Shown one piece after another: positions 26,869 through 63,880 of a stretch of DNA of 64,000 nucleotides. The stretch lies in the NCBI GenBank assembly GCA_034509925.1, contig CM067528.1, positions 8,966,001-9,030,000 on the forward strand, read 5' to 3'. Origin of the DNA: Hirudinaria manillensis. Lineage: Eukaryota; Annelida; Clitellata; Hirudinida; Hirudinidae. Each line of letters starts with the position of its first letter. Positions within the stretch are counted from its first letter, which is position 1. The notes beneath the pieces are model-generated. The model saw only the letters and a list, made by a program, of their open reading frames with translations. It was not told where the DNA came from and did not search any database. A program made the translations under genes and the position numbers.

Positions 26869-27952
26869 ACCAATATCCATCCAATAGCAGCATTGACCAA
26901 CAACTCATATCTTCCTGAGACAAATTGCAAACTCAGACATGTAACTAATTTTTAAATAATTGTATTTTAAAATAATAATCTTTTTAATAAATATTGTTGA
27001 TCGTCATATAATATAAGTGTCTTGCTTATGTGGTCGTACTGCACAATACCAGTATTTATATAATCTATTCCAGTCACTTAATTTAATGATTTTATTTATA
27101 CAATTCTGATTGGCAACGGCGCCCATAATGTCGTCAGCAACATATTTTTAACTGTTCTTTGTTTTTACATGGCGTGGTGTCTTTGGCGTGGTTCCATTTG
27201 TAGGTTTAACGATCAAACTCCCCATACATACAAGGCAACGCATTATTAACAACATGCAATGCATTGGTTAAACAAAAAACAAAGATTTAATGATTTCTCA
27301 ATGATTCTTGTAACGAGTCTGAAGACCTGAAGAGTCGCTTACGAGGCTGTTCTAATTAAATTTGTTTAATAAACTTTGATGAAACTACTTTCATGGTTAA
27401 TGGGATTACTTTTTAAACTGGAATGAAAATAAAAATTTTTTTTTATTATTTTAATAACATTTCTTTATCGCCGATAAAAGTTAATTGTTTAATTGAGTTT
27501 TAAAATTGATTCATTTTTTTCAAAATTAATTTTCAAAAGTCTAGACTCATTTCATGAAATAAATTTTAAAATTAGTCAGAGTGAGGGACTAGTCTGCCGA
27601 TTTCTTAAAGATGCTGGAACCGATGAATTCATGACAAAATATTTTTTAATTAAATTATTTCAATTACATTAATTTTTTTAAGGTATTTCTTTAAAATTTT
27701 AAATAATTTAAATTTAATTATAACAGAATTAATGTAATTAAAAATTAATTTAAAATAAATTAAAATGAAATTTTTATGATAATTTTAATAATTGGTAATA
27801 AAATTAATACGCATACTCAGAATCTTTTGATACTACCTGCAAGCTTGATATTTCTGAAATTAACACCAGATCAACCAGCAATCACCAACCAAGAAGAAAA
27901 CTTAAGCAGCACAGGAAACAGGATATTCTCAAACAGCACTCTTTCTCCTGCA
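26869..27952. other. Spacer between the two SF3B1-family genes
   Basis: Mostly very AT-rich, with TTTAATTAAATT-type sequence at about 27620-27770. The frame of the next gene is open from 27776, but residues coded before 27953 look like non-coding sequence. A TTTCTGAAATTAACACCAG run near 27870 could be a 5' UTR intron acceptor. Confidence 0.4.
26986..26991 (+). terminator. Poly(A) signal AATAAA, short SF3B1-like gene
   Basis: Canonical hexamer 118 bp past the stop codon. It supports the idea that the short gene has its own transcription unit. Confidence 0.5.
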
Positions 27953-30900: not shown

Positions 30901-31648
30901 GATTTGCTTCGAACTTCTGGAACTGCTCAAAGCCAACAAAAAGGCCATCAGAAGAGCAGCCGTCAATACTTTCGGTTATATAGCCAAAGCCATCGGACCT
31001 CACGATGTTTTGGCCACGTTGTTGAACAATCTCAAGGTTCAAGAAAGACAGAATCGCGTGTGCACGACCGTGGCCATAGCCATCGTCGCCGAAACTTGCG
31101 CACCGTTCACAGTACTACCGGCTTTGATGAACGAATACAGAGTCCCAGAGATGAATGTACAGAATGGAGTCCTTAAGTCACTCTCCTTCCTCTTTGAATA
31201 TGTCGGCGAAATGAGCAAAGATTACGTGTACGCCATCACCCCGCTCCTGGAAGATGCCCTCATGGACAGAGACCTGGTCCATAGGCAGACGGCCATGTCG
31301 GCCATAGGGCACCTGGCAATTGGCATCTATGGATTCGGCTGCGAGGATGCCCTCGCGCACCTGATGAATTTCGTCTGGCCGAACATCTTCGAAACGTCAG
31401 CTCACGTTCGCCTTGCATTTGCGAACGCAGTCGAGGGAATGAGGATCGCTCTCGGCCCGGACAAGATCCTCCAACATTTGTTCCAAGGACTTTACCATCC
31501 TGCCAGGAAGGTCAGAGAGGCCTACTGGAAGGTGTACAACTCGTTGTACCTCGGATCTCAAGACGCACTCGTGGCTGCCTATCCTAGGATACCCAACGAC
31601 GACAAAAACAAGTACATCAGATACGAATTGGACTACACTCTCTTTTGA
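27953..31648 (+). CDS. SF3B1: Splicing factor 3B subunit 1 (intronless)
   Basis: One frame of 1231 codons from the preferred ATG at 27953 (open from 27776). SF3B1 is the HEAT-repeat core of SF3b in U2 (and U12) snRNP and clamps the branch-point duplex. N-terminal part: YDPFAEGG, then five tryptophan ULM-type motifs ([36 protein letters not shown]) in a TP-rich region. [10 protein letters not shown] block follows, then about 20 HEAT repeats ([58 protein letters not shown]). It ends [10 protein letters not shown]. Residues equivalent to R625, H662, K666 and K700 are intact. Compared with human (1304 aa) it lacks the first 80-90 residues, and some very conserved C-terminal stretches are diverged. 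No introns, unlike typical metazoan SF3B1, so it may be a functional retrogene. AATAAA at 31727-31732. Confidence 0.93.
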
Positions 31649-43523: not shown

Positions 43524-46379
43524 TTAAGCAAAGCCGAAAGAATTTGATCCTTCTCTAATGGCAAGGAGGAGCTTTTCTTCAAGAACTTCCTTACAGCTGT
43601 AACGATTTAAAATCAATGTGTTGAAACATGTTGATGATGACGGGAAACATTTATCAGGATCCCCATCACGTTCCCTGAGCTGGATTGTAAGTGTTGGTGT
43701 CAACGTTTTTAGACCACCACAGGGTAACCTCGGACTGCTCGTAACAAAATGAAGGAAATAACTCTGATCACTGGCAGATAATGACGAGAGAACCTCGAAT
43801 AAATATTGAACGACAGGATTATCTACAGATAGTCCATCTTCCAAAATGCAATTATCCCTGAGGTATTCGACAGTCCACTGCTCTTTCCGAATGCCGCAAA
43901 ACAGCAGATCAAGTTCGTCAAAATAAAATCGTTTAAACAATTTTACTGAAAAAAACTGGTTGAATCCGGACCTAAGTCTTCTGAAGCTCTCTTCTGGTCC
44001 TTTGTACAACAGCCACCAGATCAATAACTGCAAATATTCTTCCAAATTATGAGCTGTCAAAAAAATATCTTCGCCACCGCTTTTCATTTCCACCGATGGA
44101 AATCCGGGAAGAGTAAAATTGATGCACAGATCTTCAAAAGAGCATCCATCGCATTTCAATTTCGATAAGGCATCTGCACGCTCCTCAGGAGTTAGAGATT
44201 TGTCATTGGTAATGTTCAATTTCTCTTTCATGGTCCTGATTAAGCTTAATACGAATTTGAACATGGAGGGTACAACATACTGTAGATCGCCAAGTGAAAG
44301 AAACTGCATTCCATCAATTGTACCAATCATGCTCTTATAAAACGCTTTGCTAAAATTAATATCGAGCCTTTCACCAATTGCGATCGACTTTGCCATGACA
44401 ATCCCAACGGCTTCCATCACGTTTTGCGACTGTAATGAAGATAAAGGCTTAGGAAACAGGCCCACTGGTGAATTAACGTACACCACACCGTTGACACTCG
44501 TAACTGGATCGCCAATCCACACGTCCAATTCGTACCTCTGACAATCTCGGGAGAATTCTGTGTAAAATTCTTTCACAGGCCCGTTGCCAGTTGCAATTTC
44601 TCCTTCAAATCTTATTCCCGAAGCAAATGACTTCGAGGTGTTAAACAAATGAAGTTTGTCAGAAACAAAGCTAGCCAGTTCTGTCCTTGGAACTTCAATC
44701 GAATCCTCCTCACCGGGGTAAAAATGGTCAAACACTTGATCTCCTACATCCACAGAAAATAAATTCTCACGCGTCTCATACGAGAATAAAAATGGATAAT
44801 GATCTGCTATTTTTATAATTGACTCGGTCATGTTGGTATATTCTTTGGACATTCCCCTATCGATCAATTCAAAATAAACAGTTTCTAAATTTTTACTTAC
44901 AAAATGATTTCTATCGATCAGCTTTTCGGTAGTCACAACTCCAAAAACCAATCCCCAATTCTCGTTTACCTCGTTGAAAATTGATAAAAGTCTCAGTACC
45001 TGGACAAACGGGTTTGTTTTCAGTTCATCTGGAGAGTTTGACAAACCGAGAGCTCTGTTCATAGATGACGAAACGCCTAGTCCTAGACTGATGTTTTTTG
45101 GCGACTCAGGTATCATAGCGCAGCGGTCTCTATCACCAATGTCGTCAATGTGAATCAGAAAACCCTGATCTATCAAGATTATATCGAGTGTTTCAACTAG
45201 TGACGTGATGAAGGTTTTAAAGTTTTCGATTCCCTTTGACTCTTTTACCATTCTTTGTAGGACATGAGGCTCTTCGAGAGGCAGGTAACGCGGCAACTTC
45301 AACATTAGTGCTACGGCTAATAACAAGCGGTGGTATCTCAATCCATAAATTGACCGAAGATCCAGGATATTGCTATTCACAGGGAGAAGAGCTTCGAGAA
45401 TTATGTTTATTTTACTCAGGCGAAATTCAAGGTCTTCTTGAATAGGAGTCATTTCATCGTAGTCGTACAACCAATACGTTACAGACCTTGCCCAAAAGTC
45501 CGTCACCCAATGCCATTCGTCATCCAAGAGCGATTCAACGTTCGGATTATTATGAAGAACTTCAAAGAGTTTTGCCTTCTGAAATTCTCTCACATGGTTG
45601 TCTATCAAGGTTTCCATGACGGCCAAACCAATTGCCGTGTTTTCCTCTTGTACCGACAGCACCAAATCTTTTACGAATGACAAAAGATCATCAATTTTCA
45701 CGAAATTGGTTAGTATGTTTAAACTGTTTGCCCAGAATATAGTCTTCAAGAGAAGAACCTGCTGCACGAACAGCGATTCTGAACTCGTGCACAATTCGTA
45801 AACTAGAGGAAATAATCTGTCAAGCGTGGAAATAAGATATGAAGTGTTATCTGCTTTAACGTGGGTACCTGTGAATAAAACACCCATGCCGATGTCTTTT
45901 AAAGAGTCGTAACTCGGACGAGGCGGCAATGCAGGTAACAGTTCGGAAATCACGTGTGCCACAGTGATTTCGTTCGATCCATCTTGCAGTGCACACTTAA
46001 TGAGTCCGTTTTCCTTTTCCATTTTCATTACCTTGATGAGAGCATTGACAATACCACTTTGTTCCAGGATCACGAATCTCTTGAAGCGACAATATACGTT
46101 CACAAGATCGTGTAAAACCATCAATATTTCCGTGTTGTCGGATATAATATCGTACGACGTAAGTCCAACGAGCAACTTCAGAAAATTGTTCGTTATGACG
46201 CATTTCCTGAACCGACAGGGGGTATGTTGCCAAACGTTGAAGACCGTATGGAAATCCTTAAATCTACGTACCAAGCTCGAACAATCATCGATTAACATTC
46301 GTATGTGGCCAGGATTCGCTCCCTTTAGGTCGAGTAGAAATTCCACAATTTCTTCCTCTATTTTTCCGAAATCACGCAT
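43524..46379 (-). CDS. HECT E3 ubiquitin ligase, TRIP12/UFD4-like C-terminus (array copy 1, type A)
   Basis: Intronless, 951 codons. The C-terminal 350-380 residues are a HECT domain closest to TRIP12/UFD4: FYTEFSRDCQRYELDVW, GIVMAKSIAIGERLDI, EEYLQLLIWW, FVTSSPRLPCGGLKTL. The catalytic cysteine loop is PSSSTCFNTLIL, and the end EKLLLAIREGSNSFG is typical. HECT ligases accept ubiquitin from E2 on this cysteine and pass it to a substrate. The N-terminal 570 residues are helical with no recognised domain, possibly an armadillo-like substrate-binding region; TRIP12's own ARM/WWE parts are not recognisable. The domain and catalytic residue look intact. It lies in tandem with two paralogues on the same strand; the 5' flank (46380-46830) matches that of copy 2. 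Confidence 0.88.
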   Translation of the reverse strand: MRDFGKIEEEIVEFLLDLKGANPGHIRMLIDDCSSLVRRFKDFHTVFNVWQHTPCRFRKCVITNNFLKLLVGLTSYDIISDNTEILMVLHDLVNVYCRFKRFVILEQSGIVNALIKVMKMEKENGLIKCALQDGSNEITVAHVISELLPALPPRPSYDSLKDIGMGVLFTGTHVKADNTSYLISTLDRLFPLVYELCTSSESLFVQQVLLLKTIFWANSLNILTNFVKIDDLLSFVKDLVLSVQEENTAIGLAVMETLIDNHVREFQKAKLFEVLHNNPNVESLLDDEWHWVTDFWARSVTYWLYDYDEMTPIQEDLEFRLSKINIILEALLPVNSNILDLRSIYGLRYHRLLLAVALMLKLPRYLPLEEPHVLQRMVKESKGIENFKTFITSLVETLDIILIDQGFLIHIDDIGDRDRCAMIPESPKNISLGLGVSSSMNRALGLSNSPDELKTNPFVQVLRLLSIFNEVNENWGLVFGVVTTEKLIDRNHFVSKNLETVYFELIDRGMSKEYTNMTESIIKIADHYPFLFSYETRENLFSVDVGDQVFDHFYPGEEDSIEVPRTELASFVSDKLHLFNTSKSFASGIRFEGEIATGNGPVKEFYTEFSRDCQRYELDVWIGDPVTSVNGVVYVNSPVGLFPKPLSSLQSQNVMEAVGIVMAKSIAIGERLDINFSKAFYKSMIGTIDGMQFLSLGDLQYVVPSMFKFVLSLIRTMKEKLNITNDKSLTPEERADALSKLKCDGCSFEDLCINFTLPGFPSVEMKSGGEDIFLTAHNLEEYLQLLIWWLLYKGPEESFRRLRSGFNQFFSVKLFKRFYFDELDLLFCGIRKEQWTVEYLRDNCILEDGLSVDNPVVQYLFEVLSSLSASDQSYFLHFVTSSPRLPCGGLKTLTPTLTIQLRERDGDPDKCFPSSSTCFNTLILNRYSCKEVLEEKLLLAIREGSNSFGFA

Positions 46380-46830
46380 TTTAGTTAGTGGCTCAAAAAG
46401 GTATCTGCTTTGCTTTGGAATCCTTTTGGTGAAAACAAATTTTTACGACTGAAATATTATTAATATTACGGTTGTTATTGTAATTTTTACCTAGTTTTTA
46501 CAAATGGTTATTTGTTCCAGCACAGCCATACCACTGAAAAACGATTCTAAAAATTAATTTAACTGATTTAATTAATTTTTATCGAGTAAAATTAGTTTTT
46601 AAAAAATTTATTTAAACCCATATTTGTTTTTTGTGTTAATGATATATCTTTGCTGAGATTTACTAGAAACTTTTAAATTTTCTTTCGATATTTGATTCTG
46701 TAACTAAACAAATCTTTTCCATTTTTTTAATATTATTATTACAAAAAACGTTAAATATGATAAATAGTCATCTTGGTCAGAATATCATAGCCTAACGAAT
46801 CATAAGACAATATTTTTTCATAGAGAATAT
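46380..46830. repeat. Duplicated 5' flank shared by HECT genes 1 and 2
   Basis: Nearly identical to 56323-56773 for its whole length: the same sequence upstream of the ATG, with a few differences only near the outer end. In copy 1 the match stops exactly at the TIR element; in copy 2 it runs on into the 3' flank of HECT gene 3. Confidence 0.92.
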
Positions 46831-47407
46831 CCCAGCAAACACACCACGGAGGTGCCCGGCTATTAAGCTCTGGTTGCTCTGCGAAATACCGGCCTTCAGT
46901 CGGGGGTTCCCCAGCCATATCCCGGCACTATTATTCGCGGATCGACCGTATCCAACCCGCCACAACTATTAAGTAAAGAACTATGCGTATAAAATATTTA
47001 TTTACAAAAATCGTTCATTCATCGACATTTAATTTTCACTTTCGACTTCCAGCTTCTCCATCTCTGGCATTCCCAAACCATCTACAAAGTCCATCCTCCA
47101 AATCTTGGGTGGTGGAGGTTGATGTGTTTGGATTCTTCTTCACTTCATCTGACTAATAAGTAGCATATGGTTCTAGGCTATATAATGTATGACATTAAAG
47201 CCATTTGACTAACCAAGCACAACTTCCATAAACTCAGATTGTTCAAAGGCGATTTTGCCGCAATGTCCCATGAGGCTAAATGATCAGGCCGTATCCTCAG
47301 TCATAAGCTGCTTCAATCATCTTTTTTATTGCTGTGTCTAGGTCGGAACTCCCATTGATATAAAAAGCAGAAATTTTAATAAAAAATGAAAAATTATTAA
47401 ACAAATA

Positions 47408-50401
47408 CTAGAATGTTATCCTTACACTCACCCAACGAGATATTATCACAGCATCCTTTAAAAGGTCCTCGAAGACTAAAAATGAAGTTAATACTCTGGA
47501 CGAGCGCCGACAAGAATCCTCAGAGAGGTTGCCCCATCTGCAAACGTTTCGGACCTTTATTCCTCTGACGTTCTCCGGGGCTGGGCCACACCCGCTGATC
47601 AGGCGGATGTTCTTGTCGGTCGAATCTTTTGCACATCTTCCAAGCCGGAGTCTGGAAATGAGTACCTCCTTTGCCCTGTGGGCACATTGGAAGACGTTTC
47701 TGGTCGAAACCTGTTTTTGAATGCCGTAGTATGAACAGGCAGAAAAGGTATCCCATCTTTCCTGCCATTCCTCCTCGATCTTCTTTGTAACCAGCCTTCG
47801 TGCGTCCTCGACAGTCCCTGGGATTAGGCGGTCCGTCTGGACTCGGGCTGTTGCTGCCTTTGCGAGTAGGTCTGCCTTCTCGTTTCCGGGAATACCTACG
47901 TGTGCGGGTACCCAGACGAGTGTGACTTCCTGTCCCTCTTCACTGAGTTCTGTAATCATAGAGAGAATTCTGTGAGTTGCAGTGTCGTTATACGCGTTAT
48001 TACGATTGCTTAGTAGCTGTATAGCACTAAGGGAATCGCTTAGTATAATAATATTAGGGTCCTCCCCCTTGTAGGAGTTTTTTAAGAGCAGCAGACAGTC
48101 CTCTATGGCTGCCAGTTCGGTGGAACATATGCTGCTCTCAGGAGAGGCTCTGATACTGAGCTCCACCTTCTTCTTAGGAATGAAGATGCCAATACCGGCC
48201 TTGTCCTTCATCTTGGATGCGTCGGTGTAACACAGCAGACTATGTTCCCTGAGGTCCTCGATCTTCTCACGAGCAACCAATGACCTGCGAGGGTCGTCGG
48301 CCGCTATCTCCAGAGTGGTGGTGTCGATCAGGGGACATTTCAGTGTCCATGGAGCTCTGTTTGTTTCCGCGTCTCGTGTGCTTACGATGTCCTTTAGAAT
48401 ATCGTCGGGCACGAGCCTAGCAGCTTCGGAAGGGCTCGGTCGGTTGGCCTTCTTCAGTATCCAGTGGAGTTTGCTCGTCCGTGGTGAGATCCTGGAACTA
48501 GAAGTTAAGTTAAAGTAACAGTTACTTATTGGGTTATGAGGCGAAGCCAGCGATCTGATGGCGTGGTTTGCAGTTAGCTTTTTTCGGCGGAGGCCTAGTG
48601 GAAGCTCACCACATTCCACCTGTAGAGTTGAGGAATTTGTTCCTGGCAGACTACGGCAACAGATTTTTAATGCTTGATATTGCAAGCTGTCATATATTTT
48701 TCTATTGCTTCCATGGCTCATGTCAAAGGCCTCGCCAGCATAATCCAATATAGATCTTATGGTTGCTCTGTATAGCTGGAGGAGGCAGGATTTGCTGGCA
48801 CCCCAAGTGGTTCCAGCAACAGCTCTCATAACATTGAGCCTCTTTCCACATCGCTCTTTGACTGCCTTTGTGTGGGCATTCCAGTTAAGTTTCTCGTCTA
48901 GGATGACTCCCAGAAAAGTCACTGTTGGGGAGACTGGAATGCGACCACCAGCTATATGGAGCCCAACTTTGCAGTTGTAATTCCTCGATTTGTTCTTCTG
49001 AAAGAGAATAGCAGAGGATTTACTACAAGATAATTTAAAACCATTATTATTAAAAAACTTATCCGTATCGTTGAGCTGTTTCTGCATCTTGGACGTCATT
49101 GACGCCAGATTGCTCCCAGAGGTCCAGAAGGCGATGTCGTCTGCATACATGGACATCTTTATCCCTTTTTGTGGCTTAGGCAGACCGTCTAGCATCACGA
49201 TGAATAGTAAAGGGCTTAGGACACTGCCTTGAGGGGTGCCATTTTCCAGCGTGTACTGCCCAGAAAGCTCTGCCCCTATTCGGACTTCAATGGTTCGATC
49301 CTTCATGAAGTCTTGGATCCAGTTCAGCATTGGGCCTCTGATGCCGAGTTTGGACAGTCTGGCGATTATGCCATCCCTCCAAACTAGATCGAAGGCCTTC
49401 TCTAGGTCGAGGAAGACACCCAGCGTCTTCTTCTTTTTGCTGGAGGACGCCATTGCGTCCTGCACTATTCGTACAATCTGGTCTGTACATCCTCTTCCTT
49501 TTCTGAAACCGGCTTGGTTTTGGCTGAGCAAGTTGGAACTTTCAAGGAACCATCTAATCCTAGAACTGACCACTCTTTCGAGGAGTTTGCAGAGAGTAGA
49601 AGTCAGAGAAATGGGTCTGTAAGAGTTTGGATCGGAGGGGTTTTTCCCTTTCTTCTGGATTGGAATGACGGTAGCTTTCTTCCACAAGGAAGGGAGGCGC
49701 CCCAGCGACCAGGATAGATTGAAAAGAGAGACGATACTGTTGAGACAGGGCAGAGGAAGTCTTCTAATCATTTCGTAGTGGATTCCATCGGGGCCAGGAG
49801 AGGAGTTTCCACACTTACGGAGTGAGTCAGCTACCTCCTGGATGTCAATGGGTTTGGAGAGAAATGAGGTGTTCGGATTTTCCTTTTGAGGATCGAAAGA
49901 AAAGACATTCTTGATATGCAAGAAGTTGGGAGAGAGGTTGGCATTATTGCTGGCCCCAGCAAAGGTTTTGGCGAGTCTTTCAGCCTTGCCTTGATTGTTC
50001 AGAGGAGATCCGTCAGGGGAAGAGAGGGGAGGGATGCGAACCCCTCTATGATGGCCGTTCATGCCGTTGACAGTCCTCCAGAGGGTGTCCAATCCTGTTG
50101 ACCTATTGAAGCTCGAGCAGAATTTTTGCCAGCATTCCTTTTTAGAATTCTTTATGATCCATTGAGCCTTGCCCTTTGCCCTTCTGTATTCATCGTGTGC
50201 CTCCACTGTTCGAATCTTCAAGAAGCGGTTCCTTAACCGGTTTCTTTCTTTTACCGCTCTTTTGCAGTCGTCGTTCCAGTAGGGAGCTGCAGGTTTCCTC
50301 GGGCATTGTCTCATGGAATGTCCGGCCCAATCAGATCTGAGGAGAAATTCTGTTAAAGACAGGTCTTGACGAAATGAACTCCATGCTTTGCAATCCAGCA
50401 A
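47408..50401 (-). CDS. I-like non-LTR retrotransposon ORF2 (RT + RNase H), 5'-truncated
   Basis: Uninterrupted 997 codons. Reverse transcriptase occupies about residues 200-500: SYRPISLTST, motif A FLDLEKAFD (about 330), motif B GTPQGSVLSPLLF (about 388) and catalytic MYADD (about 418). An RNase H domain lies at about 750-880, with its acidic residues in YTDASK, STELAAIEDC and LSDSLSAI and the final WVPAHVGIPGNEKADLLAK. RT plus C-terminal RNase H indicates the I/Jockey-related group with RNase H. The upstream apurinic endonuclease and ORF1 are absent: the frame starts in the linker after the endonuclease, so this is a typical 5'-truncated insertion. The clean ORF suggests a recent insertion. 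It sits inside the TIR element, in the same orientation as the HECT genes. Confidence 0.9.
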   Translation of the reverse strand: MLDCKAWSSFRQDLSLTEFLLRSDWAGHSMRQCPRKPAAPYWNDDCKRAVKERNRLRNRFLKIRTVEAHDEYRRAKGKAQWIIKNSKKECWQKFCSSFNRSTGLDTLWRTVNGMNGHHRGVRIPPLSSPDGSPLNNQGKAERLAKTFAGASNNANLSPNFLHIKNVFSFDPQKENPNTSFLSKPIDIQEVADSLRKCGNSSPGPDGIHYEMIRRLPLPCLNSIVSLFNLSWSLGRLPSLWKKATVIPIQKKGKNPSDPNSYRPISLTSTLCKLLERVVSSRIRWFLESSNLLSQNQAGFRKGRGCTDQIVRIVQDAMASSSKKKKTLGVFLDLEKAFDLVWRDGIIARLSKLGIRGPMLNWIQDFMKDRTIEVRIGAELSGQYTLENGTPQGSVLSPLLFIVMLDGLPKPQKGIKMSMYADDIAFWTSGSNLASMTSKMQKQLNDTDKFFNNNGFKLSCSKSSAILFQKNKSRNYNCKVGLHIAGGRIPVSPTVTFLGVILDEKLNWNAHTKAVKERCGKRLNVMRAVAGTTWGASKSCLLQLYRATIRSILDYAGEAFDMSHGSNRKIYDSLQYQALKICCRSLPGTNSSTLQVECGELPLGLRRKKLTANHAIRSLASPHNPISNCYFNLTSSSRISPRTSKLHWILKKANRPSPSEAARLVPDDILKDIVSTRDAETNRAPWTLKCPLIDTTTLEIAADDPRRSLVAREKIEDLREHSLLCYTDASKMKDKAGIGIFIPKKKVELSIRASPESSICSTELAAIEDCLLLLKNSYKGEDPNIIILSDSLSAIQLLSNRNNAYNDTATHRILSMITELSEEGQEVTLVWVPAHVGIPGNEKADLLAKAATARVQTDRLIPGTVEDARRLVTKKIEEEWQERWDTFSACSYYGIQKQVSTRNVFQCAHRAKEVLISRLRLGRCAKDSTDKNIRLISGCGPAPENVRGIKVRNVCRWGNLSEDSCRRSSRVLTSFLVFEDLLKDAVIISRWVSVRITF

Positions 50402-50650
50402 GTGTGGATATCATTTTCCGATGGATCTGCAAAAAACGTGGAAAACTATTATCTCACTAACTAATACAGTATTATTATTTTTTTTTATATTTTTTTTTTT
50501 TATTTATTTATTTTTTGTTTTTGTTTTTTTAATTTTTTTAAAATTTTTATTCCTTCCTATTATTATCCATCATTATCATTAATACTTAACCTAACTAACA
50601 TAGTCTTGACCATCTTCGTTATGAACAAGACTTTAAACCACTCACACACA
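50402..50650 (-). repeat. A-rich tail between two retrotransposon fragments
   Basis: On the minus strand this region becomes A-rich (about 50550 down to 50470, with runs of A and AAAT). It is best explained as the poly(A)-like 3' tail of the RLE-type retrotransposon to its right, next to the 5' break of the I-like element to its left. Confidence 0.55.
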
Positions 50651-52100
50651 CTTGTACTCGCCTCGGATCGAGCCGAGAGGTGGTTTTGAGCACTGGTCGA
50701 TTGATTGTCCCCGGTTCTCCGTGGGAGACTACCTGGCGTCCCTCTTTGACCATATCCACTGCGACGCCGCCTCAGCAGCCCTGGACATCTTCGCCATGGA
50801 TTTTGACCTAGCGCTACTGGTTAGGCCAACCTCTCGCAGGAACGCCTAGGTAAACTTTCCGATGAGTCCCCTTGCTCCCACCTATATGGCGAAGAACCAA
50901 ACCCTGTACCCCTTTTGTCTGATGTCCATCGTCAGGTCCAGGTATTTTTCCTCCTTCAGACTGTTGCTAATATCTATTCTATCTTCCCAGGGCACTGTCA
51001 ACTCTGCCAGGACGAGTGCATCTGCCTTAGTTGATGACAGTGCAATGTCCGGCCTTTTCCCACTTTCTGCTAGCACCTGGGGATAGTGCCTCAACCCTGC
51101 GATATCTGCCGCTATCTCCCAGTCATTGGCAATCTCGAGGAGGTGGCTCCTTCTTGACACACATCTGTTCTTTGCGAACTGGGAGGCGCCCTCTCGTAAG
51201 AAGTACGTCGCTCTCTGTGGAACCGATACCCTTGCGTTGGCGCTGGAGCAGGCTGTCTTGACGGTTTCGGTTACGGCCAGCAGAACTTGATTGTGACGCC
51301 ACGTAAAGCGGCCATGCGCCAGGGCGAAACTGCACCCAGACAGTACGTGACGGAGTGTCTGTCTCTCTCCGCAGAGCGTGCACTCAGTGTTCGCCATCAT
51401 CCATCGTTGTAGGTTGTCGCGCGAGGGCAGCACGTCGTAGACCGCGCGAACAACGAAGGCCAGCCTGAATGGGGACATGTTCCACATTTCCTGCCACGTT
51501 ATCGATCTATGGAGGACTTCTTCCCACGTGGTCCATTGCCCTTGTTGGGACTGCTGAACTGCCTTGGCTATTCGCTCGCTTTCAATTTCCCTCCTCCTTT
51601 CCTGGATCACCATCGTAGCTCTAAGTGGAGAGCTCGCCTTCGACCATCTTGTGAAATGGTTCCAGCCCACGCCAAGACGGTCGCTCTGCACCGGGCCTTT
51701 TATTTCTTCGAACTTCAGAGCTTCTTCCGACTTTGTGATCTCCTCCTGGGTCTTGAACTTTCTTCCTGATCTCAGCAGCGGCGCAACTTCTCGGATTGAT
51801 GTATCCGCGGAGTTATTCATCCTTGGCTGCGTTCGGATCTTTCCAATCTTGTATTCTTCGACAATGGATCGTAACGGAAGGCGAAGTTTTGCGCTCTTGC
51901 TGTAGAGAGCGACCGACGTCAGTCCCGGCGGAAAACCCAGCCATAATCTTACTCTCCGGCTGTATCTCCTTTCCATCGCCTCGACGGAGGACAGGCCGAT
52001 CTCATAGATGGTGAGAGGCCATAGGAGTCTTGGAAGCAGAACAAACTGCGACAGCCTGCAGTCATCTCGAACTGGGAAATGCACCCCTTCTGGAAAATCT
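50590..52100 (-). mobile_element. 3' fragment of an RLE-type (R2/NeSL-like) non-LTR retrotransposon
   Basis: The minus-strand coding region 50882-52084 (400 codons) is the C-terminal part of an RT protein. It contains a thumb-type region (RRYSRRVRLWLG), a zinc-knuckle-like CTLCGERQTLRHVLSGC and a restriction-like endonuclease core (KRPDIALSS followed by LAELTVPWEDR and KYLDL). The order RT, CCHC, PD-(D/E)xK-like endonuclease is known from the R2/NeSL/Hero group. The RT palm is missing (5' truncation near 52100). 3' UTR plus A-rich tail at the left end. The ORF is open but cannot retrotranspose alone. Confidence 0.75.
50882..52084 (-). pseudogene. RT C-terminus with restriction-like endonuclease
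   Basis: Coding part of the fragment described above. It starts in mid-protein (the first Met is not a real start) and ends near YRVWFFAI. CCHC at about residues 235-252; the PD...E endonuclease motif at about 345-370. No catalytic RT motifs remain. Confidence 0.7.
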
Positions 52101-52288
52101 GCATTTTCAATCCATTGCCTTTCTTAAGGTTTTGAATCTTTATGAACATCAAGATATTCATTTTTATCAGACTTTCAAGAATTGAAATAATCTCCTTAAC
52201 AGCCTTTTTCTAAATCTGTTTTAACAACATATCAATAATGAATCAATAATTCGTGAATTTGTCCAATAACATTACAATATTGCTTAAC

Positions 52289-52648
52289 TCACTTTTTTGT
52301 CAATCTTTTGAAATGTGAGAAGGTTGTTTCATATTTCTTCAAGAACAGTTGACCTTCTTTAATCCTCTTAACAATTTGGGCAAGAGGTTTATTTGGCTTT
52401 TTAACTAATTTTTTAAGCTGGTACAGAAGAGTTTCAAATTTAAATGATGGCACAGACCATGTTTCTTCATAAAACTGGCGAGATGACTCTTTAATCCACT
52501 CTAGTGTATCATCATAGTCATTGTGTATACTTGAGCATGGAGGAGCACTATCAACGTTAACAAAAGTAACAGTCTCGAATGAATCCATTATTTGAGACAT
52601 TCGCTTCGCTAATTTACGCCTTTGAGTGCGTGTTGACCAAAATGACAC
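52289..52648 (-). CDS. Unassigned 119-codon ORF inside the TIR element
   Basis: Basic, Lys-rich protein with no family I recognise. It contains TLEWIKESSRQFYEETWSVP and ends in basic KKYETTF-type sequence. It may be a remnant exon of a protein of the TIR element or of the host locus. No splice partners were found. Listed because it is the only ORF of length outside the retroelements here. Confidence 0.25.
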   Translation of the reverse strand: MSFWSTRTQRRKLAKRMSQIMDSFETVTFVNVDSAPPCSSIHNDYDDTLEWIKESSRQFYEETWSVPSFKFETLLYQLKKLVKKPNKPLAQIVKRIKEGQLFLKKYETTFSHFKRLTKK

Positions 52649-52849
52649 CCATTCTAAAGAGGTGATGCAGAAAAAAACCTTAGCTTGAAAGTTTTCAATA
52701 AACTATCAAATTAAATAATAAAAAATCACTAAATTATCTGGAAGTTCGATCAGCAACGTATTAGCAGTGACACACACCCCATTCCAAACAGTCTAATCCT
52801 AACAGATGTAAATCGGACCAAGAGACAAAGACTCTGGCCTTATAATACC

Positions 52850-53308
52850 CGCGCATGATCCGCCCATTTTACGCCTTTATGAAAATTCGTTGTAAATATA
52901 TTTAATTATAACTCCAAACGTTATTTAGTGAGCACATTCGTTAAATAACATCGTTTGCAACAACGACTTATTTAGCATGAATTTTCAATCTAAATAACAT
53001 CAATAGTTAGTTTAATACAGGCAAGCCGGGCAACACGCCCTCTACCCTATATTCCGTGTACGGCTTTAGAAAGACAGCTCTCCACTAGGCTTAGCTCCGC
53101 CCATTTGTTTAGCCGTTAATTCGTGAAAACTCACTTTAAATAGTTCCAAACGTTATTTATTGAGTACATTCACGTTAAACAATATCCTCTGCACCAGCGA
53201 CTACTTTAGCGAGAATTTTCAAACTAAATGACATTAAAATTGTTTGGCTGATGCGGGCAAAACGGGCAATCCGCATTCAGCCCTCGCCCCCCGGATGTGT
53301 TTGCTGGG
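52850..53308. repeat. Two diverged copies of the TIR-element right-end unit
   Basis: 53042-53308 is closely related to 63615-63880, the right part of the second TIR element (shared TAGCTCCGCCCA, AGCCGTTAATTCGTGAAAAC and CTCTGCACCAGCGACT). The segment at 52850-53040 is a more diverged copy of the same unit in the same orientation (CCGCCCATTTTACGCC, CCAAACGTTATTTAGTGAGC). Confidence 0.8.
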
Positions 53309-53466
53309 ATGTGATTGAAACCAAACAAATTTAACCAGAAAATATGAAGGAATGAAAAGAAAGTTATACTTTACTACGAAATATAACAAAGTAATATATA
53401 ATTCATTTTATGTAGAAAATATTTTAAAATACGATTTATTCGTTAAAAAATTATACCAAATCTTCT
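53309..53466. repeat. 3' flank of HECT gene 2, duplicate of the flank of gene 3
   Basis: Nearly identical to 56774-56936 (a few substitutions and one short indel). This is the 3' UTR and flank of a type B gene, although the body of gene 2 is type A. It supports the hybrid origin of gene 2. Confidence 0.92.
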
Positions 53467-56322
53467 TCAAACATATCCAAAAGAACTTGATCCTTCTCTA
53501 ATGGCAAGGAGGAGCTTTTCTTCAAGAACTTCCTTACAGCTGTAACGATTTAAAATCAATGTGTTGAAACATGTTGATGATGACGGGAAACATTTGTCAG
53601 GATCCCCATCACGTTCCCTGAGCTGGATTGTAAGTTTTGGTGCCAACGTTTTAAGACCACCACAGGGTAACCTCGGACTGCTCGTAACAAACTGAAGGAA
53701 ATAACTCTGATCACTGGCAGATAATGACGAGAGAACCTCGAATAAATATTGAACGATAGGATTATCTGCAGATAGTCCATCTTCCAAACTGCAATTATCC
53801 CTGAGGTATTCGACAGTCCACTGCTCTTTCCGAATGCCGCAAAACAGCAGATCAAGTTCGTCAAAATAAAATCGTTTAAACAATTTCACTGAAAAAAACT
53901 GGTTGAATCCGGACCTAAGTCTTCTGAAGCTCTCTTCTGGTCCTTTGTACAACAGCCACCAGATCAATAACTGCAAATATTCTTCCAAATTATGAGCTGT
54001 CAAAAAAATATCTTCGCCACCGCTTTTCATTTCCACCGATGGAAATCCGGGAAGAGTAAAATTGATGCACAGATCTTCAAAAGAGCATCCATCGCATTTC
54101 AATTTCGATAAGGCATCTGCACGCTCCTCAGGAGTTAGAGATTTGTCATTGGTAATGTTCAATTTCTCTTTCATGGTCCTGATTAAGCTTAATACGAATT
54201 TGAACATGGAGGGTACAACATACTGTAGATCGCCAAGTGAAAGAAACTGCATTCCATCAATTGTACCAATCATGCTCTTATAAAACGCATTGCTAAAATT
54301 AATATCGAGCCTTTCACCAATTGCGATCGACTTTGCCATGACAATCCCAACGGCTTCCATCACGTTTTGCGACTGTAATGAAGATAAAGGCTTAGGAAAC
54401 AGGCCCACTGGTGAATTAACGTACACCACACCGTTGACACTCGTAACTGGATCGCCAATCCACACGTCCAATTCGTACCTCTGACAATCTCGGGAGAATT
54501 CTGTGTAAAATTCTTTCACAGGCCCGTTGCCAGTTGCAATTTCTCCTTCAAATCTTATTCCCGAAGCAAATGACTTCGAGGTGTTAAACAAATGAAGTTT
54601 GTCAGAAACAAAGCTAGCCAGTTCTGTCCTTGGAACTTCAATCGAATCCTCCTCACCGGGGTAAAAATGGTCAAACACTTGATCTCCTACATCCACAGAA
54701 AATAAATTCTCACGCGTCTCATACGAGAATAAAAATGGATAATGATCTGCTATTTTTATAATTGACTCGGTCATGTTGGTATATTCTTTGGACATTCCCC
54801 TATCGATCAATTCAAAATAAACAGTTTCTAAATTTTTACTTACAAAATGATTTCTATCGATCAGCTTTTCGGTAGTCACAACTCCAAAAACCAATCCCCA
54901 ATTCTCATTTACCTCGTTGAAAATTGATAAAAGTCTCAGTACCTGGACAAACGGGTTTGTTTTCAGTTCATCTGGAGAGTTTGACAAACCGAGAGCTCTG
55001 TTCATAGATGCCGAAACGCGTAGTCCTAGACTGATGCTTTTTGGCGATTCCGGTATCATAGCGAAACGGTCTCTATCACCAATGTCGTCAATGTGAATCA
55101 AAAAACCCTGATCTATCAAGATTAGATCGAGTGTTTCAACTAGTGACGTGATGAAGGTTTTAAAGTTTTCGATTCCCTTTGACTCTTTTACCATTCTTTG
55201 TAGGACGAGCGGCTCTTCGAGAGGCAGGTTTTGCGGCAACTTCAAGATTAGTGCTACAGATGATAACAAGCGATGGTATCTCAATCCATAAATTGACCAA
55301 AGATCCATGATATTGCTATTCCCAGGGAGAAGAGCTTCGAGAATTATGTTTATTTTACTCAGGCGAAATTGAAGGTTTTCTTGAATAGGAGTCATTTCAT
55401 CGTAGTCGTACAACCAATACGTTACAGACCTTGCCCAAAAGTCCGTCACCCAATGCCATTCGTCATCCAAGAGCGATTCAACGTTCGGATTATTATGAAG
55501 AACTTCAAAGAGTTTTGCCTTCTGAAATTTTCTCACATGGTTGTCTATCAAAGTTTCCATGACGGCCAAACCAATTGCCGTGTTTTCCTCTTGTACCGAC
55601 AGCACCAAATCTTTTACGAATGACAAAAGATCATCAATTTTCACGAAATTGGTTAGTATGTTTAAACTGTTTGCCCAGAATATAGTCTTCAAGAGAAGAA
55701 CCTGCTGCACGAACAGCGATTCTGAGCTCGTGCACAATTCGTAAACTAGAGGAAATAATCTGTCAAGCGTGGAAATAAGATATGAAGTGTTATCTGCTTT
55801 AACGTGGGTACCTGTGAATAAAACACCCATGCCGATGTCTTTTAAAGAGTCGTAACTCGGCAGAGGCGGCAATGCAGGTAACAGTTCGGAAATCACGTGT
55901 GCCACAGTGATTTCGTTCGATCCGTCTTGCAGTGCACACTTAATGAGTCCGTTTTCCTTTTCCATTTTCATTACCTTGATGAGAGCATTGACAATACCAC
56001 TTTGTTCCAGGATCACGAATCTCTTGAAGCGACAATATACGTTCACAAGATCGTGTAAAACCATCAATATTTCCGTGTTGTCGGATATAATATCGTACGA
56101 CGTAAGTCCAACGAGCAACTTCAGAAAATTGTTCGTTATGACGCATTTCCTGAACCGACAGGGGGTATGTTGCCAAACGTTGAAGACCGTATGGAAATCC
56201 TTAAATCTACGTACCAAGCTCGAACAATCATCGATTAACATTCGTATGTGGCCAGGATTCGCTCCCTTTAGGTCGAGTAGAAATTCCACAATTTCTTCCT
56301 CTATTTTTCCGAAATCACGCAT
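53467..56322 (-). CDS. HECT E3 ubiquitin ligase, hybrid (array copy 2: 5' type A, 3' type B)
   Basis: Intronless, 951 codons, same architecture as copy 1, with the catalytic PSSSTCFNTLIL loop and no frame damage. From the ATG to about residue 830 it is almost identical to copy 1. From the CGIRKEQWTVEYLRDN region to the stop, and through its 3' flank, it is identical or nearly so to copy 3 (NCSLEDGLSADNPIVQ, KLTIQLRERDGD, end SSSFGYV). The last copy-1/2-specific base against copy 3 is at 53827 and the first copy-3-specific base against copy 1 is at 53789, so the switch lies in 53790-53826. Residues 315-445 are unusually diverged from copy 1. Confidence 0.9.
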   Translation of the reverse strand: MRDFGKIEEEIVEFLLDLKGANPGHIRMLIDDCSSLVRRFKDFHTVFNVWQHTPCRFRKCVITNNFLKLLVGLTSYDIISDNTEILMVLHDLVNVYCRFKRFVILEQSGIVNALIKVMKMEKENGLIKCALQDGSNEITVAHVISELLPALPPLPSYDSLKDIGMGVLFTGTHVKADNTSYLISTLDRLFPLVYELCTSSESLFVQQVLLLKTIFWANSLNILTNFVKIDDLLSFVKDLVLSVQEENTAIGLAVMETLIDNHVRKFQKAKLFEVLHNNPNVESLLDDEWHWVTDFWARSVTYWLYDYDEMTPIQENLQFRLSKINIILEALLPGNSNIMDLWSIYGLRYHRLLSSVALILKLPQNLPLEEPLVLQRMVKESKGIENFKTFITSLVETLDLILIDQGFLIHIDDIGDRDRFAMIPESPKSISLGLRVSASMNRALGLSNSPDELKTNPFVQVLRLLSIFNEVNENWGLVFGVVTTEKLIDRNHFVSKNLETVYFELIDRGMSKEYTNMTESIIKIADHYPFLFSYETRENLFSVDVGDQVFDHFYPGEEDSIEVPRTELASFVSDKLHLFNTSKSFASGIRFEGEIATGNGPVKEFYTEFSRDCQRYELDVWIGDPVTSVNGVVYVNSPVGLFPKPLSSLQSQNVMEAVGIVMAKSIAIGERLDINFSNAFYKSMIGTIDGMQFLSLGDLQYVVPSMFKFVLSLIRTMKEKLNITNDKSLTPEERADALSKLKCDGCSFEDLCINFTLPGFPSVEMKSGGEDIFLTAHNLEEYLQLLIWWLLYKGPEESFRRLRSGFNQFFSVKLFKRFYFDELDLLFCGIRKEQWTVEYLRDNCSLEDGLSADNPIVQYLFEVLSSLSASDQSYFLQFVTSSPRLPCGGLKTLAPKLTIQLRERDGDPDKCFPSSSTCFNTLILNRYSCKEVLEEKLLLAIREGSSSFGYV

Positions 56323-56936
56323 TTTAGTTAGTGGCTCAAAAAGGTATCTGCTTTGCTTTGGAATCCTTTTGGTGAAAACAAATTTTTACGACTGAAATAT
56401 TATTAATATTACGGTTGTTATTGTAATTTTTACCTAGTTTTTACAAATGGTTATTTGTTCCAGCACAGCCATACCACTGAAAAACGATTCTAAAAATTAA
56501 TTTAACTGATTTAATTAATTTTTATCGAGTAAAATTAGTTTTTAAAAAATTTATTTAAACCCATATTTGTTTTTTGTGTTAATGATATATCTTTGCTGAG
56601 ATTTACTAGAAACTTTTAAATTTTCTTTCGATATTTGATTCTGTAACTAAACAAATCTTTTCCATTTTTTTAATATTATTATTACAAAAAACGTTAAATA
56701 TGATAAATAGTCATCTTGGTCAGAATATCATAGCCTAACGAATCGTAAGGCAAGATTTTTTCGTACAAAATATGTGATTGAAACCAAACAAATTTAACCA
56801 GAAAATATGAAGGAATGAAAATAAAATTATACTTTACTACGAAATATAACAAAGTAATATATAATTCATTACTCATTTTATGTAGAAAATATTTTAAAAT
56901 ACGATTTATTCGTTAAAAAATTATACCAAATCTTCT
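56323..56936. other. Spacer between HECT genes 2 and 3 (empty TIR-element site)
   Basis: 614 bp made of the type A 5' flank (56323-56773, equal to 46380-46830) joined directly to the type B 3' flank (56774-56936, equal to 53309-53466). The junction AATATGTGATTG at about 56770-56779 is the pre-insertion site of the composite TIR element found in the sister spacer. Confidence 0.88.
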
Positions 56937-59792
56937 TCAAACATATCCAAAAGAACTTGATCCTTCTCTAATGGCAAGGAGGAGCTTTTCTTCAAGAACT
57001 TCCTTACAGCTGTAACGATTTAAAATCAATGTGTTGAAACATGTTGATGATGACGGGAAACATTTGTCAGGATCCCCATCACGTTCCCTGAGCTGGATTG
57101 TAAGTTTTGGTGCCAACGTTTTAAGACCACCACAGGGTAACCTCGGACTGCTCGTAACAAACTGAAGGAAATAACTCTGATCACTGGCAGATAATGACGA
57201 GAGAACCTCGAATAAATATTGAACGATAGGATTATCTGCAGATAGTCCATCTTCCAAACTGCAATTATCCCTGAGGTATTCGACAGTCCACTGCTCCTTC
57301 CGAATGCCGCAAAACAGCAGATCAAGTTCGTCGTAGAAAAATAGCCTTAAAAATCGTACTGGAACAAAGTAATTGAATCCAGACCTAAGTCTTCTGAAGC
57401 TCTCTTCTGGTCCTTTGTGCAACAGCCACCAGATCAATAAATGCAAATATTCTTCCAAGTTATGAACTGTCAACAAAATATCTTTGCCACCGCTTTTCAT
57501 TTCCACCGATGAAAATCCGGGAAGAGTAAAATTGATGCACAGATCTTCAAAAGAGCATCCATCGCATTGCAAATTCGATAAGGCATCTGCACGCTCTTCA
57601 GGAGTTAGAGATCCATCAGAGGTAATGCTCCATTTCTTTTTTAAAGTTTCGATAAGACTCAGCACGAATTTGAATGTGAGAGGCGCAACGTGCTCTAGAT
57701 CGCCGAGGAAAAGATATTGGACTCCTGTAACTGTTCCCATAAGGCTTTTATAGAATGCATCGCTGAATTTAATATCGAGCTTTTCACCAAGTGTTAGTGA
57801 TTTTGCCATGACCATTCCTACGGCTTCCATGACCTTGTGCTCTTCTATAGAGGCAAAGGGCTTGGGAAACAGGCCCTCTGGTGAATTTAAGTAAACCGCT
57901 CCGTTGGTACTCGTAACTGGATCACCCATCCACAAATTCAACTCGTATCTTTGACAGTCTCGCGAAAACTCTGTGTAAAACTCTTTCAAAGGACCGAGAC
58001 CGACCGCCATTTCTTCTTCAAAATTTATTTCCCAGGCCAATGATTTTGATATGCCAAACAAGTTGAGGTTGTTGGCAACAAAGTTTGCCAAGTTTGTTCT
58101 CGGGACTTTTATAGCAACACCTGAACGACAATATTCGGTTTCATCGGTGTCCCTGAGAATGTATAGGTTGACCAAATGTTTACGAACATCAAACGGTAGC
58201 AAGAAATGGTATTCTTCTGCTATTTTACATACTGACCTTAATACAGGTCTTCCTCCTCTGAATTCTTCGGTAATCATGTTGAACAAAGCATTATCGAAAA
58301 CCTGGCTGACAAAATATTCCCTGGGAATGAGTTTTTCTTTTGCAAAGTTGCTGAACAGCATTCCCCAGTTCTCATTTACCTCGTGGTAAATAGATAGCAA
58401 TCTCAGAACTTGAACGAGCGGATTCTTTCGCAGCTTGTCGGGCGATTGTGAGGTAGAAAGAACTCTAGATAGTGATGGGGTCGTGCAGAATCCTAGATTT
58501 AAATCAGCGGGTGATTTCGGTGACCAAGTTCGATCTCCCCTCTCAGCCATGTCTGGAAAGTAATCGATGAAACTCTGGTCAATTAGAATCGAATTCAGTA
58601 ATGTAACGGTAGACTTGACAGTGGTTTCGAATCCCTCTCGCCCCTTTGTTTCATCTAACTTTGTAAAGAGATGTTCCTGACCATCAAAATACATTTCAGA
58701 TGGCAGGTCAAGAATTACATTCAGTAAGCTTTTTAGCCTGTAATATCTAAGGCCAAAATTCGTTAGTGGGTCTTCTTCGCATTCTGGAAGGAGATAATCA
58801 ATATTTATAGCCAATGCGTTCAATTCGTTTTGGAAGACTTTCTGATCCAGCGCGAACTCTGTAACATCTATATTTAGCCAAAACATTATCATATTTTCAC
58901 ACATTTCTTTAACCCACCGTCGACCATCGCTGTTCAAAATCGCGTCTAAGTTGGGACAGGCATGTATGGCTTTGTGAAGTTTTTCACTTTGGAACGTCTT
59001 CAGATGTTTTTTCAGCAACGTACGTATTATGGCCAAAGCAATCATGTTGTAGCCTACATTCTCTGAGAGTAACAAAGAACCGACGAAACGAAATAGACCC
59101 TCGATTTCCACAAAATCTGACAAAACGTCGAAATGGTTTGCCCAGTAGATATTTTTCAGTAACAGGGCTAAATTTACGACAGAAGGTTCGCTATTGATGC
59201 ACAAGTTGTACATTGATGGAAACAGTTTCTTAAGAGTGGATACGATAACGTTCTTCGTGATTTCATCTTCTGTAAGGTGACCCCGACCAGCGATTAAAAT
59301 CCCCGAACCGAGATCATTCAAATCCATGTAGCACAGAGTCAAGGGCATCGACGGTAGGAATTCAGAAAGTACATGTGCCGTGGTAATTTCACTTCCTCTA
59401 AGGGTGATAATTCCATTGCTGACTTCGCTTTCCATTACCCGGACTAGAGCCTGTAAAACTCCAATTTCCTCGAAATACTTCATCATCTGCAGTTGAGATT
59501 CGCTACAAAAGAAGCTTGCAAATTTATAAGCGATCGACAACATCTCAGTTGTCTTGGACATTCGTTTGTAGACAAGCATGCCGACGAACAGTTTATAGAA
59601 ATTATCTGTCAATATGATGGCTGGGAATCCAATTCTCGTAACCACTACGTGCAAACTCTGTAACATGGAGGTCACTAGCTGTTTGTTGTCGTTGTCTTCC
59701 AAAAGACTATTCACGTGATTTGGTTTTGCGTCTTTCAGATTGTTGAGGAATTGCGTCACTTGTGACAAGTGGTCTTTCAATGTCCTAGCCAT
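56937..59792 (-). CDS. HECT E3 ubiquitin ligase (array copy 3, type B)
   Basis: Intronless, 951 codons, the same length as its paralogues, but its first 820 or so residues are strongly diverged from type A while keeping the same plan (FYTEFSRDCQRYELNLW, GMVMAKSLTLGEKLDI, EERADALSNLQCDGCSFEDL). The last 120 residues are identical to copy 2, including the catalytic STCFNTLIL loop. TRIP12/UFD4-like HECT domain; the N-terminal helical region has no recognised domain. It is the first gene of the array in the direction of transcription and is divergent from the membrane-protein gene at 60499. Intact and probably the older partner of the A/B pair. Confidence 0.88.
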   Translation of the reverse strand: MARTLKDHLSQVTQFLNNLKDAKPNHVNSLLEDNDNKQLVTSMLQSLHVVVTRIGFPAIILTDNFYKLFVGMLVYKRMSKTTEMLSIAYKFASFFCSESQLQMMKYFEEIGVLQALVRVMESEVSNGIITLRGSEITTAHVLSEFLPSMPLTLCYMDLNDLGSGILIAGRGHLTEDEITKNVIVSTLKKLFPSMYNLCINSEPSVVNLALLLKNIYWANHFDVLSDFVEIEGLFRFVGSLLLSENVGYNMIALAIIRTLLKKHLKTFQSEKLHKAIHACPNLDAILNSDGRRWVKEMCENMIMFWLNIDVTEFALDQKVFQNELNALAINIDYLLPECEEDPLTNFGLRYYRLKSLLNVILDLPSEMYFDGQEHLFTKLDETKGREGFETTVKSTVTLLNSILIDQSFIDYFPDMAERGDRTWSPKSPADLNLGFCTTPSLSRVLSTSQSPDKLRKNPLVQVLRLLSIYHEVNENWGMLFSNFAKEKLIPREYFVSQVFDNALFNMITEEFRGGRPVLRSVCKIAEEYHFLLPFDVRKHLVNLYILRDTDETEYCRSGVAIKVPRTNLANFVANNLNLFGISKSLAWEINFEEEMAVGLGPLKEFYTEFSRDCQRYELNLWMGDPVTSTNGAVYLNSPEGLFPKPFASIEEHKVMEAVGMVMAKSLTLGEKLDIKFSDAFYKSLMGTVTGVQYLFLGDLEHVAPLTFKFVLSLIETLKKKWSITSDGSLTPEERADALSNLQCDGCSFEDLCINFTLPGFSSVEMKSGGKDILLTVHNLEEYLHLLIWWLLHKGPEESFRRLRSGFNYFVPVRFLRLFFYDELDLLFCGIRKEQWTVEYLRDNCSLEDGLSADNPIVQYLFEVLSSLSASDQSYFLQFVTSSPRLPCGGLKTLAPKLTIQLRERDGDPDKCFPSSSTCFNTLILNRYSCKEVLEEKLLLAIREGSSSFGYV

Positions 59793-63499: not shown

Positions 63500-63880
63500 C
63501 CCAGCAAACACACCCCAGGGGGCCCACGCGGGTCCCGGGCGGGTATATTCGGGGGTCCCGCGTAGGTTTTGACCGCGGGGGGCGCAAGGGACCGGGCTGC
63601 CCGGCTATTAAGCTTTTTCCGAGTACGGCTTTAGGAAGCCAGCACTCCACCAGGCGTAGCTCCGCCCATTGGTTTAGCCGTTAATTCGTGAAAACTCACT
63701 TTAAATAGCTCTAAATGTTATTTATTGAGCACATTCAAGTTAAATAATATCCTCTGCACCAGCGACTGCTTTAGCGAGAATTTTCAAACTAAATAACATC
63801 AAAATTGTTTAGCTGATGGCGGGCAAAACGGGCAACCAGCATTCAGCCCTCGCGGGCCCCTCTGGAATGTGTTTGCTGGG
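63500..63880. mobile_element. Short non-autonomous TIR element (same family as 46831-53308)
   Basis: 381 bp, starts CCCAGCAAACACA, ends TGTGTTTGCTGGG, flanked by AA on both sides (63498-63499, 63881-63882). The left part is strongly G+C-rich (63515-63600). The right 265 bp match 53042-53308. Size and lack of coding capacity fit a MITE-like derivative. It shares the internal GCCCGGCTATTAAGCT with the left end of the large copy. Confidence 0.85.

Follow-up and report, generated by a model that had tools for sequence, protein, structure and literature searches.

HECT ubiquitin ligases that arose as hybrids through unequal crossing over are already known. The HERC5/6 chimeras of rodents and bats are duplicated genes that carry the front of one linked HECT paralog and the end of the other, which is explained by unequal crossing over between neighbors; they break upstream of the spacer region, and the whole HECT domain comes from one parent. 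The codons under positive selection in rodents map to that spacer region, outside the HECT domain (PMC7775381). A parallel in another gene family is the chicken BG region, a same-orientation multigene region in which haplotypes were compared and many 5′/3′ hybrids were ascribed to recombination or deletion (PMC4046983). As for the ligase TRIP12, PMC12440805 reports that its last four residues contact the donor and acceptor ubiquitin, with the penultimate residue serving as a hydrophobic glue, and that changing the terminal serine to the residues of other HECT ligases, including alanine, valine and tyrosine, is deleterious.

The locus described here is an array of three HECT genes in a 64-kb window (the whole stretch of DNA analyzed, G000:C3:8966001-9030000) from a single genome assembly of 148.4 Mb and 23 contigs. 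The smallest contig, of 15,581 bp, is a mitochondrial molecule whose first 6,000 bases can be translated with the invertebrate code (code 5), which marks the source as an invertebrate. Like the HERC5/6 chimeras, the middle gene of the array has the front of one linked HECT paralog and the end of the other, and it is a clean but ordinary further case of such a hybrid. Unlike theirs, its break falls late in the HECT domain, such that only the last part has been swapped, and the genes of the array are intronless, TRIP12-like members of a large family. The array shares with the chicken BG region its same-orientation, multigene arrangement, but only one assembly was available here where haplotypes were compared in the chicken. 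No description of the TRIP12-like family of this genome was found among the papers listed in the literature searches, as judged from titles and abstract openings. The three genes are as follows.

43524..46379, minus strand: copy 1, type A HECT gene; one 951-aa open frame, A-type 3′ flank, tail SFGFA
53467..56322, minus strand: copy 2, hybrid HECT gene; one 951-aa open frame, A-type up to 53827 and B-type from 53789 on, tail SFGYV
56937..59792, minus strand: copy 3, type B HECT gene; one 951-aa open frame, tail SFGYV

All three copies are read from the minus strand in head-to-tail order, each as an unbroken frame of 951 aa. Each has a single match to the HECT profile PF00632 (E = 1.8e-64, 1.4e-65 and 2e-65 for copies 1, 2 and 3, respectively), extending from profile positions 25-27 to 304-305 of 306 and thus covering a nearly full HECT domain. 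When the three proteins were used as tblastn queries, the window yielded no fourth copy. The three-gene array with an A/B hybrid in the middle that a sequence-only reading had proposed is therefore present in the assembly, as judged from the open reading frames, the Pfam matches and the site counts given below. At its 5′ end, each of copies 1 and 2 is overlapped by an antisense open frame of 162 aa (45964-46452 and 55907-56395, both on the plus strand), probably by chance.

The change of parentage in copy 2 is confined to a short stretch.

53790..53826, minus strand: A/B switch stretch; 37 bp the same in all three copies, residues 833-845

Copy 2 shares base 53789 with B but not with A and base 53827 with A but not with B; all 37 of the 37 bases between them are identical. 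The stretch lies near the start of the C-lobe. At coding sites upstream of 53827, copy 2 agreed with copy 1 alone at 933 and with copy 3 alone at 9, and copies 1 and 3 agreed against copy 2 at 10; downstream of the switch, the corresponding counts were 0, 14 and 0. The nine upstream exceptions, at which copy 2 sides with copy 3, are scattered along the gene. A paralog at G000:C6:4478652-4481501, which is 68% identical to copy 2 and is referred to below as the C6 paralog, shares the copy 2 base at six of the nine, which we therefore read as changes in copy 1; at residues 371 and 425 it agrees with copy 1 instead, and at residue 265 with neither. The B character of copy 2 continues into its 3′ flank as far as 53311. 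The 3′ flank of copy 1 is A-type and aligns with that of the C6 paralog; the homology of copies 2 and 3 to the C6 paralog stops no more than 3 bases away from the stop codon. The earlier description of copy 2 as A in front and B behind, with the switch inside 53790-53826, is thus borne out by 933 versus 9 sites upstream and 0 versus 14 downstream, and we found one switch of parentage rather than alternating A and B tracts.

The sequences between the genes carry a second record of the same history.

56323..56772, minus strand: hybrid's A-type 5′ flank, spacer 1; meets the B 3′ flank near 56772
53311..53466, minus strand: hybrid's B-type 3′ flank; relative to copy 3, 2 of 156 sites substituted and one 7-bp indel
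46380..46830, minus strand: copy 1's A-type 5′ flank, spacer 2; 6 substitutions at 46802-46825, adjoining the transposon
46831..53308, strand not assigned: transposon in spacer 2; 6,478 bp, ends CCCAGCAAACAC inverted, LINE-like ORFs inside
47408..50401, minus strand: reverse transcriptase and RNase H ORF in the insert (Pfam)
50882..52084, minus strand: zf-RVT ORF in the insert (Pfam)

In spacer 1, the B 3′ flank (about 165 bp) runs without interruption into the A 5′ flank (about 450 bp). Spacer 2 is built of the same two pieces, split by the 6,478-bp insert, which is flanked by a 2-bp AT target duplication (46829-46830 and 53309-53310) and for which spacer 1 represents the empty site. The two spacers had been described as equal in composition, and they are, apart from the transposon that spacer 2 additionally holds. 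The intact junction in spacer 1 and the split one in spacer 2 show that the two go back to a single B-A spacer. One unequal crossover predicts this pattern, as would a misjoin of two haplotypes of one B-A pair in the course of assembly. The reverse transcriptase ORFs within the insert look like a nested LINE. A short transposon of 381 bp at 63500-63880 (plus strand), a relative of this insert, has ends CCCAGCAAACAC and an AA duplication and is dispersed in the genome; its last 264 positions match the right end of the spacer 2 insert at 89%. With the window's own matches included, there were at least 58 genome matches to the 381-bp element and at least 54 to the initial 570 bp of the spacer 2 insert.

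Comparison of types A and B along their length showed that they had not remained separate before the hybrid arose.

53902..54144, minus strand: older A/B shared block 1; residues 727-807 of copy 2, A and B identical at 94% of bases
53470..53859, minus strand: older A/B shared block 2; residues 822-951, copy 1 and copy 3 96% identical, contains the switch

Elsewhere, the base identity of A and B was 51% (residues 1-315) or, in the divergent island at residues 808-821, 64%. At amino acids shared by A and B, third positions were identical at 82 of 208 codons in residues 1-600 but at 180 of 189 in the two shared blocks (727-807 and 822-951; p = 1.5e-35). Third-position identity between B and the C6 paralog rose from 103/226 in the front part to 105/160 in the shared blocks (p = 0.00012), while that between A and the C6 paralog stayed flat (246/363 and 117/166; p = 0.55). 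Segment trees of 14 genes (the three array copies and 11 paralogs) gave the same picture: the C6 paralog clustered with A at residues 1-440, 441-600 and 601-726 (FastTree support of 1.000, 0.997 and 0.867) and fell outside A+B at 727-807 and 822-951 (support for A+B of 0.918 and 0.992). At the 13 bases of residues 845-951 that differ between copies 1 and 2, the C6 paralog agrees with copy 1 at nine, with copies 2 and 3 at one and with neither at three. We conclude that A and B exchanged HECT sequence before the hybrid arose. Because the likeness of B to the C6 paralog rises in the shared blocks while that of A stays where it was, A was probably the donor and B the recipient; the direction and extent of this exchange are not certain, since third-position identity is raised at residues 601-726 as well (B versus the C6 paralog, 49/80, p = 0.019; A versus B, 50/83, p = 0.0017). 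It is therefore probable that the "type B" C-lobe derives from A and resided in B for a time. The proposal that the new gene pairs a type A substrate region with a type B catalytic C-lobe stands as regards the A arm and the B end, but not as a union of two long-separated halves.

Taken together, these results lead us to favor an origin of copy 2 as a hybrid formed by nonallelic homologous recombination within an ancestral B-A pair, a reading to which we assign a probability of roughly 0.74. A single unequal crossover accounts for copy 2 most economically and explains best what is seen, because there is one switch, the same junction occurs in both spacers, and the divergences of the two arms agree outside a tract at residues 316-438. 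A misaligned crossover in a B-A pair had been proposed as the only event; it survives as the likeliest origin of copy 2 but not as the whole history, since A and B exchanged HECT sequence earlier. The sequence of events would have been as follows. An older A-to-B gene conversion would have made the C-terminal HECT block ~96% identical. In the ancestral B-A pair, A on one chromatid would then have recombined with B on another, the crossover falling within this homogenized block, which probably enabled the recombination. The B-A spacer would have traveled in the duplicated unit, leaving one junction common to both spacers, and the transposon would either have entered spacer 2 later or have been allelic there. 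If so, the array offers a readable case of the birth of a fusion gene, in which an older conversion evens out a short block and a later crossover makes use of it.

The two arms of the hybrid can be compared with their respective parents. Between copies 2 and 3, the B arm differs at 0 of 360 coding sites and, in the flank, at 2 of 156 sites plus the 7-bp indel. Between copies 1 and 2, the A part differs at 40 of 2,947 sites, and these differences are unevenly spread.

55011..55377, minus strand: tract dense in copy 1/copy 2 differences; residues 316-438 of copy 2, 25 differences, copy 1 counterpart at 45068-45434

As many as 25 of the 40 differences are packed into ~375 bp at residues 316-438 (permutation p = 0.0005). 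Six more lie within 30 bp adjoining the transposon; no 30-bp stretch has more (p = 0.0015), although a count of six is also attained inside the 375-bp tract. An 820-bp run between copies 1 and 2 contains no difference at all (permutation p = 0.0015). With the 316-438 tract set aside, the divergences of the two arms agree (15/2572 versus 2/516; p = 0.75); with it included, they agree less well (40/2947 versus 2/516; p = 0.078). The near identity of the copies had been taken to date the event as very recent, a claim that fails on two counts: there is no date without a clock, and residues 316-438 differ at 25 of ~375 bases. Polarization of the tract by the C6 paralog placed 15 of the 25 changes on copy 1 and 5 on copy 2, with 5 undecided. 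A DNA search of the whole assembly revealed, at its sensitivity, no donor for the tract, matching only copy 2 itself, copy 1 (94%) and the C6 paralog (74%), and no nonsynonymous excess was found within the tract (p = 0.14). The tract may stem from a divergent allele on one of the recombining chromosomes or from a donor since lost; together with the six differences beside the transposon, it requires one more event than the crossover.

This uneven distribution bears first on the age of the pair. Copies 1 and 2 might be an old pair that later gene conversion has mostly homogenized, with the odd tract and the transposon-side bases keeping the true age, a view that is compatible with an origin by crossover. 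The occurrence of 820 difference-free bp beside dense tracts (p = 0.0015 for the run and 0.0005 for the cluster) would fit, and unlike sequence at the transposon could have blocked conversion there; but the B arm, which conversion between A copies would leave untouched, is nearly identical too (0/360 coding, 2/156 flank), and we regard an old pair as unlikely.

A different origin for copy 2 would be a tandem duplication of A after which copy 3 converted the 3′ end and flank of the middle copy. Exchange between copies is frequent in this HECT family, as the older A/B blocks and the mosaic triplets in three further groups described below attest, and the dense copy 1/copy 2 tract indicates that the A copies have been touched by more than one event. 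Two events for copy 2 are possible in that the agreement of the arms is weaker once the 316-438 tract is counted (p = 0.078). For spacer 2 to equal spacer 1, however, the conversion must have removed the A 3′ flank completely, as far as the point where the A 5′ flank begins, which calls for two events and a coincident end, and the arm divergences agree without this if the odd tract is set aside; we judge such an origin rather improbable. A further alternative is an assembly artefact in which two B-A haplotypes, with and without the transposon, were misjoined in their shared C-terminal block to give a false hybrid. This would predict the gene order, the presence of the transposon in just one of the spacers and differences of an allelic kind between copies 1 and 2, and the switch does fall within a 37-bp identical stretch that itself lies in a block of ~96% identity; but that block is only ~390 bp, which would be short for the joining of long reads, and the assembly pieces are 8 to 15 Mb (eight large contigs among those listed), so that we consider it improbable.

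We then asked what the crossover would have meant for the protein. Among solved structures, TRIP12 was the closest to copy 2 (E = 4e-76, compared with 3.4e-37 for UFD4 and 1.4e-24 for E3A), and residues 455-948 of copy 2 aligned with human TRIP12 (PDB 9gkm, compared by sequence). As in human TRIP12, 33 residues separate the catalytic cysteine from the C terminus (918 to 951 here, 2007 to 2040 there); unlike human TRIP12, a much longer protein, the copies are only 951 aa long, and their terminal residue is alanine or valine rather than serine. No ARM family match was found in copies 2 and 3 by Pfam at E values up to 10, with filters that drop weak matches. Cys918 is present in all three copies and aligns with the cysteine of the TRIP12 TCVN stretch, and Phe948, which also aligns with TRIP12, is invariant among them. 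After the switch, copies 1 and 2 differ at nine residues, Cys918 not among them. Two of the nine are the last residues, Phe-Ala in copy 1 and the C6 paralog and Tyr-Val in copies 2 and 3, whose counterparts in TRIP12 are located at the active site. Copy 2 looks like a functional HECT ubiquitin ligase. The hybrid would retain its substrate arm and the greater part of its HECT domain from A, together with a C-terminal part carrying the nine changed residues, and its choice of substrate is likely to be unchanged, with ubiquitin transfer possibly altered.

A search of the genome for the HECT family gave 145 matches, a number of which were short pieces. Mosaic triplets at p ≤ 0.001 occurred in 27 of 120 tests in the C10/C8 group, involving all six of its genes, in 14 of 60 tests in the C12 group (four of five genes), in 1 of 6 tests in the C3 group (one of three genes) and in 12 of 24 tests among the window genes and the C6 paralog; the tests share genes and are not independent. 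They omitted L032 and L033 for lack of a complete ORF, as well as L045 and L046, which are groups of only two genes; the fragment L047 did not enter the analysis. Differences per 150 bases were patchy, and the HECT part tended to have fewer of them, although L034 and L039, for example, depart from this. For pairs within the C10/C8 and C12 groups, pN/pS across residues 1-200 exceeded 1 in 23 of 25 cases, four of which lacked any silent change, but no pair was significant (0/25 at p = 0.05; the pairs share genes). Over the last 350 codons, pN/pS was below 1 in 22 of the same 25 pairs, 8 of them at p < 0.05. No 50-codon window with a defined pN/pS reached 1 in the C13 pair, the C1 pair or copy 2 versus the C6 paralog, and 4 of 20 did so in the C3 group. 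These values are only a hint of positive selection on the substrate arm.

The TRIP12-like family might be a recombining repertoire, in which fast-changing substrate arms are shuffled onto homogenized HECT domains and exchangeable tails tune ubiquitin transfer, in the manner of an immune or self-recognition family, with the hybrid as one recent product. We hold this view to be doubtful, but the family may merit study as such a repertoire, and were it under diversifying selection, the array would provide natural domain swaps for probing the HECT C-lobe and the last two residues.

Five consecutive HECT stretches (L030 to L034) lie at G000:C10:2074000-2106600, three with ORFs of 955-958 aa, one (L032) with an ORF of 736 aa and one (L033) with none of at least 600 aa; L032 and L033 are decaying members next to intact HECT genes. 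In the C12 group, the frame of L043 (G000:C12:2955700-2959200) stops at EGQSF, three residues short of the EFV tail of the four other C12 genes; such tail residues matter in TRIP12. The region at G000:C5:10887300-10894600 was considered as the parent TRIP12 gene and dropped, as it is mostly N.

The window also contains several other frames. An uninterrupted frame of 1,290 aa with an SF3b1 domain lies at 27776-31648 (plus strand), and upstream of it, at 25384-26868 (plus strand), are 494 aa of HEAT repeats that may represent a partial, divergent relative. A DUF7083 domain is found in a 358-aa frame at 23078-24154 (minus strand), and a 246-aa frame at 1249-1989 (plus strand) holds part of a family 11 glycosyltransferase. 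An uninterrupted 482-aa WD40 protein, presumably RBBP5-like, is encoded at 2661-4109 (minus strand).
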